From: Arthrobacter sp. UM1
GTDB taxonomy: Bacteria > Actinomycetota > Actinomycetes > Actinomycetales > Micrococcaceae
Reading direction: 5' to 3'
Length of the DNA stretch: 64,000 bases
Assembly (NCBI RefSeq): GCF_020483305.1
Contig: NZ_JACWAB010000004.1
Span: forward strand, 62,001 to 126,000
Every line of letters begins with the position of its first letter. Position 1 is the stretch's first letter. Of the stretch, positions 21,520 through 59,410 are shown piece by piece. The notes beneath the pieces are model-generated. The model saw only the letters and a program-made list of their open reading frames with translations, was not told where the DNA came from and made no database searches. Both the position numbers and the translations under genes were made by a program.

Positions 21520-21601
21520 CGTACAACCGCTTTCGCACGACCACGCCGCCCGCACCCGCTCGTACAACCGCTTTCGCACGACCACGCCGCCCGCACCCGC
21601 T
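21520..21601. repeat. Perfect 41-bp tandem duplication
   Basis: Two identical 41-bp units (21520-21560 and 21561-21601) begin CGTACAACCGCTTTCGCACG. Both contain ACCCGCT/CCGCTTTCGC cores that recur in the following hairpin modules. They lie in the 920-bp gap between the divergent NYN and betT genes, which has no credible gene. Confidence 0.92.
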
Positions 21602-21669
21602 TTCGCTCAAAAACCCGCTCGAAAACGGGTGTAAACGCCTCAAACCGGGTGTGATGGCGAAAACGGGTG
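21594..21669. repeat. Composite inverted/direct repeat module, copy 1
   Basis: Outer arms CACCCGCTTTCGC (21594-21606) and GCGAAAACGGGTG (21657-21669) enclose a CCCG/CGGG hairpin and a CCGGGTG half-site. The 53 bp from 21611 are repeated identically at 21876-21928. Confidence 0.85.
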
Positions 21670-21875
21670 CCGTGGCGGAACCGGGTGCGATGCCCACCCA
21701 TGTGCAGCCGGCGCGGCCTGTATGTACCAGCCGACTTGGCTGCGCGTCCGGCGGACTCCGAACAGGCGCAGGGGTCGAGTGGGACGCATGCGAGTCGAAG
21801 CGAACCCCTCGCCCTGCCCCCCCCTTCCACACCCGTTTCCGCTCAACGGCACCAGCCACACCCGTTTGCGCTCAG

Positions 21876-21928
21876 AAACCCGCTCGAAAACGGGTGTAAA
21901 CGCCTCAAACCGGGTGTGATGGCGAAAA
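21876..21928. repeat. Composite repeat module, copy 2
   Basis: These 53 bp are identical to the core of copy 1 (from 21611), 265 bp away. The flanking outer arms (CACCCGTTTGCGC on the left and a diverged right end) have begun to decay. Confidence 0.9.
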
Positions 21929-27543: not shown

Positions 27544-27577
27544 GGCCTGGCCCGGCTGGGGCCCCGCAGCCCCGAAG

Positions 27578-27629
27578 AATGGAGCGATCCGTGCGGTTTC
27601 GAGCCTGAAACTGCACGGATCGCTCCATT
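27578..27629. repeat. Long intergenic hairpin, family D
   Basis: Arms of about 23 bp (AATGGAGCGATCCGTGC, then GGTTTC; complement ending at 27629) with one mismatch and a 6-nt loop GAGCCT lie 35 nt after the betA stop. Only a short T stretch follows (ATTTCTG). It is probably a plus-strand terminator or mRNA 3'-end stabiliser. Confidence 0.85.
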
Positions 27630-27701
27630 TCTGTGCCTGGGTGGGCCGCTCAGCTCTCGTCCGGCCCCCAACTCTCGCCCCGTCCCCAACTCTCGCCCAG
27701 T

Positions 27702-27767
27702 CCCCTCGTCTGTTGCGAGTTGGAGGAATGGGACGTCTCTTTCCTCCAACTCGCAACAGATGAGGGG
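27702..27767. repeat. Long intergenic hairpin, family C copy 1
   Basis: 27-bp arms (27702-27728 and 27741-27767; core TCTGTTGCGAGTTGGAGGAA) enclose a 12-nt loop. The single mismatch is G opposite T, so it pairs as G:U in plus-strand RNA, the sense of the upstream betA gene. A second copy is at 39858-39917. The rest of the 27544-27863 gap is repeated CAACTCTCGCCC and AGGGGA runs with no gene. Confidence 0.9.
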
Positions 27768-39857: not shown

Positions 39858-39917
39858 CTCATCTGTTGCAAGTTGGAGGAATGGGCGTCCTCTTTCCTCC
39901 AACTCGCAACAGACGAG
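39858..39917. repeat. Long intergenic hairpin, family C copy 2
   Basis: 24-bp arms (core TGTTGCAAGTTGGAGGAA) with a 12-nt loop almost identical to that at 27729-27740. The two mismatches are A opposite C on the plus strand, which become G:U on the minus strand, the sense of the upstream siderophore gene. Confidence 0.9.
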
Positions 39918-49777: not shown

Positions 49778-50347
49778 ATGAGCAACGAGCACACCGCGCC
49801 CCGCCCCTCCGCCAGCCCCGGTTCCGCGCCCGACGGCTCCCCGTCAGCGCCTCGCCCCGGAGTCATGCCCGGAAGCCGCTCGACCCCGGTCCGGCTCGTG
49901 CGGGACTCCGGCGTCGTCGCCTACACGGCGGAGGTGCCGGCGTCGCCGTCGGACCTGTTCGCCATCCTCGCCAACCCGCACCGCCACCACGAGCTGGACG
50001 GCTCCGGCTCCGTCCAGGCGGAGGTCCGCGGGCCCGAGCGGCTGGCCCCCGGCGACCGCTTCTCCACGCACATGCGCCTCTACGGCGTGCCGTACGTCAT
50101 CACCAACACCGTGAGCGCCGTCGAGGAGGACCGCCTCATCGAGTGGGTCCACCCCGGAGGCCACCGCTGGCGCTGGGAGCTCGAGCGCCTGCCCGACGGC
50201 GGCACCCGCGTCACCGAGTCCTGGATCGCCCGGGGCGCCCGCCTTCCGCTGCTGGCCTACCGGATCATGGGCGCGTACGCCCGGAACGACGACGGCATCC
50301 GGCAGTCGCTCGAACGGGCCGCCCGGATCATGGCGGGGCGGGTTTAG
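49778..50347 (+). CDS. SRPBCC-family protein
   Basis: A 189-aa cytoplasmic protein with a START/Bet v1-like helix-grip fold: VAYTAEVPASPSDLFAILANPHRHHELDGSG at the start of the domain (about residue 45), YVITNTVSAVEEDRLIEWVHP, then ELERLPDGGTRVTESW. A hydrophobic ligand or polyketide-like substrate is usual for the fold, but none can be named. The ATG lies 6 nt after TAGTGT (49766-49771), suggesting a leaderless mRNA. Confidence 0.85.
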   Translation: MSNEHTAPRPSASPGSAPDGSPSAPRPGVMPGSRSTPVRLVRDSGVVAYTAEVPASPSDLFAILANPHRHHELDGSGSVQAEVRGPERLAPGDRFSTHMRLYGVPYVITNTVSAVEEDRLIEWVHPGGHRWRWELERLPDGGTRVTESWIARGARLPLLAYRIMGAYARNDDGIRQSLERAARIMAGRV

Positions 50348-50463
50348 GAGTCCGGCGCTGGGAGGGTGCGGGCCTGGAGGGGGTGCGGGCCTGCGGAGGG
50401 CTTGCGGGGCCTTCCTGACCGCTCCGGCCCGGGCTGGGGCGGGCTGGCTCATCTGCCCCGTGG

Positions 50464-50522
50464 CTTGTGCACCCGGTTCGTTCGGTTTTTGGCCCGAAAA
50501 CCGAACGAACCGGGTGCACAAG
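50464..50522. repeat. Long intergenic inverted repeat, family A copy 2
   Basis: Perfect 26-bp arms (CTTGTGCACCCGGTTCG... at 50464-50489; complement 50497-50522) with a 7-nt loop. Compared with the other family A copies, GGATCG has become GGTTCG on the left with the matching change on the right. The 587-bp gap 50348-50934 has no gene, only this, a family B hairpin, and an AT-rich promoter-like stretch near 50738-50775. Confidence 0.93.
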
Positions 50523-50598
50523 GCAGGCGTGTGGGGCTGGACGCGACCCACGCCGAGCTGCAGACGGCGCCCTGAGCCCTGCCCCACCCTCCTCCGCC

Positions 50599-50657
50599 CT
50601 TGTGCACCCTCTGGTGTCAGGATCTGGCCGAAATCCTGACGAGAGAGGGTGCACAAG
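50599..50657. repeat. Long intergenic inverted repeat, family B copy 2
   Basis: 25-bp arms (CTTGTGCACCCTCTGGTG... and complement at 50633-50657) with three central mismatches and a 9-nt loop, 77 bp after the family A copy, the same order and spacing as at 1703-1894. Confidence 0.9.
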
Positions 50658-50934
50658 CAGAAGTACCGGGTGCACAAGCCTCCGAGCCGAGGAGCGAACC
50701 CGGGTGGGCGGCCCCGAGAGGGAGTCTCTCGGAGGCCTAATATAAATTGCTCGTCTGTACGGTTATCTCCTAAACTGGTGAGGCTCTCATCGAGAGCTTC
50801 CACCTCTCGGGGCCTGAGGAGCCGGACCTTCTCCGGCCCCGTTCGCTGCCCTTCTCGCCCTTCCGGACGCCGCAGGGCTGCTTCCGGGGACGACACAGGA
50901 CTGCGCCGGGCCCCTCGGCCTGAAAGCGCAGCAG

Positions 50935-52785
50935 ATGACCTCTTCATCCCAATCCAGCGCCTCCCAGTCCGGCACTGACCGGCCTCGGCGAGCCCGCCCC
51001 GCACAACACCTTCCCGGACAGCCCGCCCCCGCCCGGCGCATTCCCGCACAGCCCGGTCCCGGACAGCCGGGCCCGGCGCAGCCGCAGGGGTCTGAACCGC
51101 CCCGCCGGGGACAGGGCAGCCCCCGCAGGCCCGCTCCTCAGCAGCAGGGTCCCGCGCGCAGACCCGCCCCCGCCCAGAACAAGCCCACACAGAACAAGCC
51201 CACACAGAGCGAGCCCGCCAAGAAGCCCTCGCCCAAGCGGCCCGCCGCCACTGCGGCGCCGAGGGATGAGAAGGCGAGCGGCCGGGTCGCCGTCGTCGGC
51301 TCCGGATACGGCGGAGCGGTGGCGGCGCTGAGGCTGGCCCAGAAGGGCATCGGCGTGGACCTCATCGAGATGGGGCAGGACTGGGACGCCACGGCGCCGG
51401 CCGGAAGCCGCTTCTGCGCGATGACCTCGCCGGACCGGCGGGCCATGTGGTTCTCGGACGCCACGGACATGCCGTACCGGTACCTGGCCGGGCTGGACCT
51501 CATCAACCGCCGCGTGCCGCGCTACGCGGGCATCCTGGGGATCGAGCGCTTCGCCGGGATGAAGGTGTACCGGGGCGTGGGCCTCGGCGGCGGGTCGCTC
51601 GTCAACGGAGGCATGGCGGTGACGCCGCGGGAGTCGTTCGTCCGGCAGGTCATGCCGCAGATCGACTCGCGGGAGATGTTCTCCACCTACCTGCCGCGCG
51701 CCAACGCCGAGCTGGGGGTGGCGGAACCGGCGCCGGACGTCCTGGCGCACTCCCCCTACTACCAGTTCAGCCGGACCGGCGCGGCGCAGAACAAGAAGGC
51801 CGGGTACCAGACGGTCACCGTGCCGAACGTCTACGACTGGGACTACCTCCGCCTCGAGACCTTCGGCCGTGTGCCGGCCTCGGCCATCGCCAAGGAGGTC
51901 ATCTTCGGCAACAACCACGGCAAGAAGTCGCTCACGTCCACCTACCTGAAGGCGGCGCTCGCCACCGGGCGGGTCAAGGTCAAGGCGCTCACCGAGGTGA
52001 CCCGCATCCGGAAGAAGGGCGAGTCCTACGCGCTCACCCTCAAGACCATCCGCCCGGACGGAGGGGTGGCGTCAATCTCGGACGCGGTCTACCGGAAGGT
52101 GGTGCTGGCGGCGGGGTCGGTCGGAACATCGTCGCTGCTCGTGACGGCCAAGGCCCGCGGGGACCTCCCGGACCTGGACGCGGCCGTGGGCCGGAAGTGG
52201 GGGCCCAACGGGAACACGATGGTCGCGCGGAAGCTGCCGCTGTCCGTCAAGACGGGCCTGCCGCAGTCCTGCATCCCGGCGCAGGGGCTCATGGCCTGGG
52301 ACGACTCCCCGGGCTCGGTCTTCGCGGAGATCGCCCCGTTCCCGATCGGCCTGGAGACGAACACCCTCGGCTACCTCGCCATCACGAACAACCCGAACTT
52401 CGGCGAGTTCACGTACAACCCGAGGACCCAGAAGGTGGACCTCTCCTGGAACCGCCACTCGCACGCGCCGTCCGTCAAGGCCGCCGCGGCGGTCATGGCG
52501 CGGCTCAACGCGGCGAACGGCGGGCACGTCCGGACGGACATGCTGGAGCGCGGGCTCGCGTACTCGGACTACTTCACCTACCACCCGCTCGGCGGCTGCG
52601 TCCTCGGCGAGGCCACCGACCTCAACGGCGAGCTCAAGGGCGCCCCGGGCGTCTTCGTCATGGACGGCTCGCTCGTTCCCGCGAAGGTGGGCGTCAACCC
52701 CTTCGTCTTCATCACCGCCCTGGCCGAGCGCAACATGGACAAGCTCCTCGCCGCCGGCCGCTTCACCGGAGGACTCACCTCATGA
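50935..52785 (+). CDS. Cholesterol-oxidase-like GMC oxidoreductase
   Basis: A 616-aa FAD enzyme. Residues about 115-616 resemble class I cholesterol oxidases: RVAVVGSGYGGAVAALRLAQKGI...LIEMG (FAD), GVGLGGGSLVNGGMAVTP, and active-site His/Asn in YHPLGGCVLG and VGVNPFVFI. The first about 115 residues are a disordered Pro/Gln/Ala-rich extension (PGQPAPARR; QNKPTQNKPTQ) with no signal peptide, unlike the Tat-exported enzymes known for this class. The next gene overlaps by 4 nt and encodes a Tat-secreted protein, which could carry or cooperate with it. Sterol activity is inferred. Confidence 0.85.
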   Translation: MTSSSQSSASQSGTDRPRRARPAQHLPGQPAPARRIPAQPGPGQPGPAQPQGSEPPRRGQGSPRRPAPQQQGPARRPAPAQNKPTQNKPTQSEPAKKPSPKRPAATAAPRDEKASGRVAVVGSGYGGAVAALRLAQKGIGVDLIEMGQDWDATAPAGSRFCAMTSPDRRAMWFSDATDMPYRYLAGLDLINRRVPRYAGILGIERFAGMKVYRGVGLGGGSLVNGGMAVTPRESFVRQVMPQIDSREMFSTYLPRANAELGVAEPAPDVLAHSPYYQFSRTGAAQNKKAGYQTVTVPNVYDWDYLRLETFGRVPASAIAKEVIFGNNHGKKSLTSTYLKAALATGRVKVKALTEVTRIRKKGESYALTLKTIRPDGGVASISDAVYRKVVLAAGSVGTSSLLVTAKARGDLPDLDAAVGRKWGPNGNTMVARKLPLSVKTGLPQSCIPAQGLMAWDDSPGSVFAEIAPFPIGLETNTLGYLAITNNPNFGEFTYNPRTQKVDLSWNRHSHAPSVKAAAAVMARLNAANGGHVRTDMLERGLAYSDYFTYHPLGGCVLGEATDLNGELKGAPGVFVMDGSLVPAKVGVNPFVFITALAERNMDKLLAAGRFTGGLTS

Positions 52786-53593: not shown

Positions 53594-53682
53594 CAACCCA
53601 TCCAGAGCGGCCGAGAGACTTGGCTCGAAGACGCCGCAGCAACCCTGACCCGCAGGGTGCTTCCGCCAAGACCGATGGAGTG
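53594..53682 (+). promoter_or_regulatory. SAM riboswitch (S-box, SAM-I type)
   Basis: Core motifs are in order: AGAGCGGCCGAGAGACTTGGC, GAAGACGCC, GCAGCAACC and a GGGTGC/GCAGGG arm, closed by P1 CCATC (53598-53602) with GATGG (53674-53678). The GGAG ribosome site of the next gene (53677-53680) overlaps the 3' strand of P1, so SAM binding should hide it and block translation. No terminator hairpin with T-tract follows. Confidence 0.88.
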
Positions 53683-59351: not shown

Positions 59352-59410
59352 CTTGTGCACCCGGATCGTTCGGATTCAGCCCTGAAAACCGAACGAATCG
59401 GGTGCACAAG
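59352..59410. repeat. Long intergenic inverted repeat, family A copy 3
   Basis: 22-bp arms CTTGTGCACCCGGATCGTTCGG (59352-59373) and near-complement (59389-59410) with one G:U-type and one A/A mismatch and a 15-nt spacer. It follows the CoA-binding gene by 80 nt; no family B partner is present here. Confidence 0.9.

Follow-up and report, generated by a model that had tools for sequence, protein, structure and literature searches.

Positions 50464-50657 of the 64,000-nucleotide stretch of Arthrobacter sp. UM1 DNA analysed here (the window, meaning the whole stretch) contain two long palindromes, one of a family that we call A and one of a family B. The original prediction held that the A palindrome has perfect 26-bp arms and that, relative to another copy, GGATCG had become GGTTCG with a matching change on the opposite arm; both statements are borne out, the first at 50464-50522 and the second by comparison with copy 1 at 1700-1758. 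Compensatory substitutions are commonly regarded as the strongest sign that an RNA structure is under selection, and the locus raises the question of whether pairing itself is selected or the arms are kept equal by gene conversion, the two options that the prediction offered, and of what kind of element these palindromes are. This one genome has four palindrome families with more than 80 copies, among which compensated changes stand beside half-converted and uncompensated ones, and it thus allows selection on pairing to be weighed against mutational homogenisation.

Palindrome families in the window and the genome

The features of the window to which we refer are as follows:

1700-1758: family A palindrome, copy 1, with GGATCG on both arms
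1814-1825, + strand: half-site 21 bp beyond the left arm of B copy 1, inward-pointing
1836-1894: family B palindrome, copy 1
1905-1916, - strand: half-site 21 bp beyond the right arm of B copy 1, inward-pointing
1947-1958, - strand: half-site 63 bp (3 x 21) beyond the right arm of B copy 1, inward-pointing
27575-27632: family C palindrome (AATGGAGCGATCCGTGC allele)
27705-27764: family E palindrome, adjoining C
39858-39917: family E palindrome
49778-50347, + strand: upstream gene, SRPBCC-type (Pfam Polyketide_cyc2), with its stop 116 nt ahead of A copy 2
50464-50522: family A palindrome, copy 2, 59 nt long, with perfect 26-bp arms that both carry the GGTTCG allele
50599-50657: family B palindrome, copy 2, 59 nt, with pairs 15-17 altered side by side (half-converted)
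50668-50679, - strand: half-site GCTTGTGCACCC, 21 bp beyond the right arm of B copy 2 and pointing toward B
50935-52785, + strand: downstream gene, GMC-type FAD oxidoreductase
59352-59410: family A palindrome, copy 3, with arms GGATCG / GATTCG, not homogenised

Copy 2 of A reads CTTGTGCACCCGGTTCGTTCGGTTTT ... AAAACCGAACGAACCGGGTGCACAAG, its 26 perfect pairs being followed by one mismatch, and its RNA fold is predicted at -50.7 kcal/mol (z -10.7). Its neighbour, B copy 2, carries an uncompensated three-base block, with TCTGGTG on the left arm and TCTCTCG on the right, and the arms of A copy 3 differ by two uncompensated bases. Between B copy 2 and the GMC oxidoreductase gene, at 50709-50822, lies an imperfect long stem (GGCCCCGAGAGG ... 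CCTCTCGGGGCC) flanking an A+T-rich stretch; it has a fold z of -2.7 and matches no Rfam family.

The source genome is small (2.39 Mb in 17 contigs, Micrococcaceae, estimated completeness 99.2%) and related to Kocuria and Rothia; for a window protein, the best named relatives are an Arthrobacter metagenome-assembled genome at 75% and Kocuria/Rothia at 55-61%. The genome carries 21 A and 20 B palindromes, all 41 of exactly 59 nt, with a constant distance between arm starts, as searched, of 37 nt in A and 34 nt in B. A scan of 1.54 Mb revealed two more families of like size: C, 58 nt as counted, with 23 copies of which 22 are distinct, and E, 60 nt, with 19 copies in the analysed DNA, 25 genome-wide and one arm distance throughout. 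The motif CACCC is identical in all 82 A and B arms; between copies, arms of A and B are 90-92% identical and loops 57-67%. Pair 23/37 of the A 59-mer, which bounds the arm, is a mismatch (T-T or A-A) in 18 of the 21 copies. This mismatch is kept while neighbouring pairs stay equal, and it lends the element a polarity. Long poly-C/poly-G palindromic runs at contig ends (C12:196614 onward, C1:31 onward) are possibly assembly artefacts.

The exact pair GTGCACCC-N37-GGGTGCAC occurred in 1 of 395 Micrococcaceae genomes searched, the source genome only; paired arms with up to two mismatches were absent from 58 relatives, and an exact-pattern scan of a collection of genome contigs gave no match, these searches detecting near-identical arms only. 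A plasmid or phage origin was rejected, as blastn of 50440-50700 had no match in plasmids or phages. Iteron arrays are known from plasmid and phage replication origins, and three viral contigs (L293, L294, L295) do match GTGCACCC-N37-GGGTGCAC; the match falls within a phage gene that has iterons of its own, 22-23 bp long. In that gene, which by reading rather than by family search looks like a replication initiator, GTGCACCCCGTTC is repeated every 22-23 bp and resembles the half-site found around B; we take the likeness to be probably convergent. We found no description of such repeats in Micrococcaceae and related actinobacteria in the openly licensed literature.

Arm covariation and the equality of arms

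We aligned the family A copies, counted compensatory against disruptive differences and extended the comparison to the other families. Arm covariation exceeded that of shuffled alignments in A and also in B, C and E: pairs with double changes numbered 6 in A against a shuffled mean of 1.8, 5 against 2.5 in B, 8 against 5.8 in C and 5 against 2.5 in E, and among 500 shuffles the covariation score was reached by none for A, B or C and by two for E. Counting as deviating every cell that departs from the commonest pair, so that cells count sequences and not events, the four families have 161 deviating cells, of which 66 are compensated, 25 are one-sided changes to a wobble pair and 70 are unpaired (both-sided/one-sided/unpaired: A 12/7/14; B 9/6/22; C 36/5/14; E 9/7/20). 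The differences are thus not mostly unpaired and random, and by hand tally 56 of the 70 unpaired cells belong to the outer ends of the arms (pairs 1-6 for A, B and E; pairs 1-4 for C). Variants were classed as rare if no more than a quarter of the arms had them. In 38 cases such a variant was present on both arms of a single copy, where independent draws of arms would give about 7.6, and in 56 cases on one arm.

Equal arms could also be a passive legacy, with a few founder palindromes having been duplicated and then decayed, and subfamilies that spread as finished palindromes would look compensatory too. Position 14 of A, at which 12 of the 21 copies have A-T, 7 have T-A and 2 are mismatched, suits this account, as the seven T-A copies could be one subfamily and may reflect one inherited event; local duplicates also exist, at 162436/162966 on contig C12 and 80785/81167 on contig C15. 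However, the double changes at A positions 13, 15 and 19, and at 1 and 4 together, are each private to single copies, the loops and flanks show a divergence that is not seen in the arms or in the length, and the 21-bp phasing described below is found in 20 of 20 B copies. We regard purely passive descent as highly improbable.

The type of the double changes bears on how they arose. Several have no path through a wobble pair (A1, A14, B12, B15, B16, C2-4, C9, C13, E5 and E15), and several require two transversions: A14 A-T to T-A, B15 G-C to C-G, B16 G-C to T-A, C9 C-G to A-T and E15 G-C to C-G. Changes at B15/16 and C2-4 come as blocks, and half-converted copies exist in which the two arms are mixed, namely the B palindrome at 50599 and a C palindrome at C12:130017, in which one arm has TTTG but its partner AAAAG. 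When mismatches in co-directional gene contexts were classified by transcript strand, 18 were G-U, 10 A-C and 25 other (7, 5 and 18 for A and B alone); there is no clear RNA-wobble excess among them, and the 18:10 tilt points in the direction of an RNA role. According to passages of PMC8794818 and PMC8604942, template switching homogenises the arms of inverted repeats and yields multibase compensatory changes. Because double changes of the types A-T to T-A, G-C to C-G and T-A to G-C lack a G-U intermediate, blocks and half-converted copies occur and wobble is not clearly preferred, the evidence leans to a process acting on the DNA, template switching or gene conversion at a quasi-palindrome, as the main reason why the arms stay equal; selection on pairing is also compatible.

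Neither process accounts for everything. Pure selection on pairing is disfavoured because parts of the A and B sequence are invariant. Against a reading by homogenisation only, covariation at weakly constrained positions is also a prediction of hairpin selection, and the A 23/37 mismatch, present in 18 of the 21 copies, is left unexplained by unrestricted homogenisation if the priming stem does not begin immediately beyond it. Taken together, the changes in blocks, the pairs of transversions, the copies caught half-converted, a core that does not vary and loops that have diverged lead us to homogenisation combined with selection on sequence: template switching or gene conversion would mainly keep the arms of a copy equal, and the CACCC core and the fixed length would be preserved by selection on sequence. 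The dichotomy in the original prediction was thus a fair one, and the coordinated change on which it rested recurs at several positions in four families; of its two options, the evidence leans to homogenisation of the DNA. The compensatory change in the window is one instance of concerted evolution and is, alone, no proof of a selected RNA hairpin.

Half-site arrays, gene context and chromosomal position

We searched the surroundings of A and B for the half-site GCTTGYGCACCC, allowing up to three mismatches. Every B copy (20/20) has at least one inward half-site at an exact multiple of 21 bp, with 22 half-sites at 21, 14 at 42, 4 at 63, 2 at 84 and 1 at 105 bp, and half-sites at B point inward far more often than outward (59 versus 8). 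Around A, 3 of 21 copies have a half-site at a multiple of 21 bp, and the orientations are 20 inward versus 18 outward. Of the 66 exact occurrences of GCTTGYGCACCC in the genome, 65 are located at A or B loci, and one array comprises 5.8 tandem units. In all 12 pairs of palindromes less than 400 bp apart, A and B alternate, which 9 of 20,000 label shuffles matched; this statistic overstates independence, several pairs belonging to one locally duplicated cluster. The A-B spacing varies from 83 to 316 bp, with up to four palindromes per gap. A further type of repeat, F, with the half-site RCACCCGYTTYYG, occurs as 30 clusters between genes of the analysed DNA; 22 of these have both orientations, facing inward in 22 of 22, with a central spacing of mostly 27 nt. 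In the window, F-type CACCCGYTTYYG half-sites lie at 21593-21671 and 21829-21898.

B thus has the layout of a protein-binding dyad array, in which half-sites are helically phased and aimed at the dyad. Our preferred account, to which we give a probability of roughly one half, is that A and B are scattered DNA elements with dyad symmetry that serve as putative protein-binding sites, and that homogenisation of their arms takes place on the DNA. They would be candidate sites for a lineage-specific DNA-binding protein. B is the centre of a small array (a palindrome with half-sites GCTTGYGCACCC at 21-bp multiples, or two helical turns, mostly inward), and A is a lone palindrome alternating with it. 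It counts against a protein site that 22-bp arms are long for one half-site.

The positions of the palindromes relative to genes bear on a second account, in which they are RNA hairpins selected for pairing, either transcription terminators or stabilisers of 3' ends. The folds are very stable and the arms covary. By refined gene calls, none of 83 A, B, C and E elements in the analysed DNA lies inside a gene; 30 are flanked by convergent genes, 42 by co-directional and 7 by divergent ones, and the other 4 are located where a contig or stretch ends. Relative to the share of intergenic length, convergent contexts are enriched (30/79) and divergent ones depleted (7/79), which suits a role at 3' ends. 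The account fits C and E well, with median distances to the nearest facing stop of 41.5 and 63.5 nt. A and B are more broadly placed, with medians of 101.5 and 99 nt and a long tail, 10 of the 21 A copies and 10 of the 20 B copies being at most 100 nt from a facing stop, and their gaps hold as many as four palindromes.

A sister genome of the same genus (G001) carries its own palindromes, CCCCTCGTYTGGCRTNYGCC, shortly after stops. Among orthologues in its analysed part, with loci grouped by hand, a palindrome with arms of at least 14 starting at most 120 nt past the orthologous stop was found at 10 of 14 loci for C/E and at 3 of 8 for A/B. The baseline figure for 3' ends in that genome is 72 of 215, and the A/B value is at this level. 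At one orthologous 3' end, the source genome has an E element where the sister genome has a palindrome of its own type. The exact arm cores of A, B, C and E and the F motif were absent from 0.8 Mb of the sister genome. There were no terminator-like sites in 50340-50960, by reading no T-run follows the stem in A or B flanks, and within the window no A or B palindrome matched Rfam above gathering score, the only hits being tRNA and, at 53595-53681 on the + strand, a SAM riboswitch (RF00162). Sub-threshold miRNA matches at palindromes are generic hairpin matches. C and E look like repeat-family terminators; A and B, unlike C and E, do not look terminator-like. With no clear G-U signature, no T-run, no clear link to terminator positions in the sister genome and half-site arrays that extend beyond a hairpin, we rejected an RNA role for A and B, and consider selected RNA hairpins decidedly unlikely as an explanation of them.

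A and B are also unevenly placed in the genome. Clusters of parS, marking the origin, lie at 45-51 kb of contig C13 and at 1.154-1.160 Mb in the sister genome, to whose 0.90-1.42 Mb region contigs C12-C16 and C3 map (C1 is ambiguous). Of the 41 A and B palindromes, 36 are on C1, C3 and C12-C16 (0.81 Mb, around the origin) and 5 on C9-C11 (1.45 Mb), and the 24 placed E copies are split evenly, 12 on each set, with one more on the unplaced C17. Gene coverage is 0.65-0.83 on origin-side contigs versus 0.85-0.89 on the other set; this lower gene density accounts for part of the A/B bias, yet it acts equally on E. The bias may reflect either the origin or a generally more variable region.

More speculatively, A, B and the F-type CACCCG arrays could be parts of a fast-evolving, undescribed chromosome-organising system in this Micrococcaceae lineage. 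Its sites would consist of a dyad with inward, helically phased half-sites, A and B being concentrated on both sides of the replication origin. The sister genome has the same kind of layout in unrelated sequence, its palindromes being accompanied by half-site runs at 40-bp spacing (three loci on its C1: 528842, 530133 and 1439815), as if the site and its binding protein co-evolve and are replaced together. We hold this broader reading to be unlikely.

Comparison with known systems

Iteron arrays, of which the phage gene gives an example, resemble the B arrays in having GTGCACC-containing half-sites repeated every ~21-23 bp. The phage iterons differ in lying inside a putative replication-initiator gene, whereas the arrays at A/B loci are dispersed and intergenic. 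Intrinsic transcription terminators are likewise long hairpins in 3' intergenic space, which suits C and E; A and B differ in having no U-tract and in showing no clear connection with stop codons or with the places of terminators in the sister species. Quasi-palindromes maintained by template switching, as treated in passages of PMC8794818 and PMC8604942, share with the present families the homogenisation of arms, multibase compensatory changes and intermediates. Template switching is a mutational process, however, and leaves the sequence conservation, phasing and distribution of A and B unexplained.

The closest parallel in form is with REPINs and BIMEs, which passages of PMC3116915 and PMC2817692 describe as having inverted arms at fixed distance, a less conserved spacer, alternation, species specificity and compensatory changes. 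A and B have several of the traits by which REPs and REPINs are recognised: they are extragenic, dispersed, palindromic and multi-copy, with constant spacing and a variable spacer. As in the REPINs of PMC3116915, two conserved inverted sequences flank a spacer kept mainly in length, form a hairpin and undergo compensatory changes. As in the BIMEs of PMC2817692, two palindromes alternate in intergenic clusters, with hybrids, complementary changes that keep the symmetry and species specificity, here with the exact pair in 1 of 395 genomes. On these grounds A and B could be miniature mobile elements, palindromic doublets of fixed spacing spread between genes by a transposase acting in trans.

Several observations oppose such spread. 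The Y1 transposase family (PF01797, RAYT) had no match in the 99.2% complete genome, in a search whose controls were positive in 5 of 14 genomes. A non-palindromic head of the GTAG/GTGG type, for which we took the REP sequences in Table 1 of PMC2817692 as comparison, is absent, A and B beginning with CTTGTGCACCC and their flanks having just a weak G at -1. Target-site duplications, by which MITEs and insertion sequences are recognised, did not exceed shuffles at any k from 2 to 10. Transposase-driven spread was rejected because the genome has no Y1_Tnp of its own and no target duplications. The loops have strongly diverged, and the inward half-sites phased at 21 bp around B are not part of the REPIN description in the passages of PMC3116915 considered. 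From the BIMEs, as portrayed in PMC2817692, A and B differ in being two sequence families and not one REP in alternating orientation, in their spacing of 83-316 bp and in having no transposase. As RAYT, head and target duplication are lacking, we do not file A and B as REPINs, and think a REPIN- or BIME-like mobile origin unlikely; they may function like REPINs. BIMEs are bound by proteins in E. coli, according to passages of PMC2817692. Among REP-like repeats it would be unusual to find a dyad with phased half-sites, alternation of two palindromes and a concentration near the origin; together these features suggest a DNA-binding function that is directly testable.
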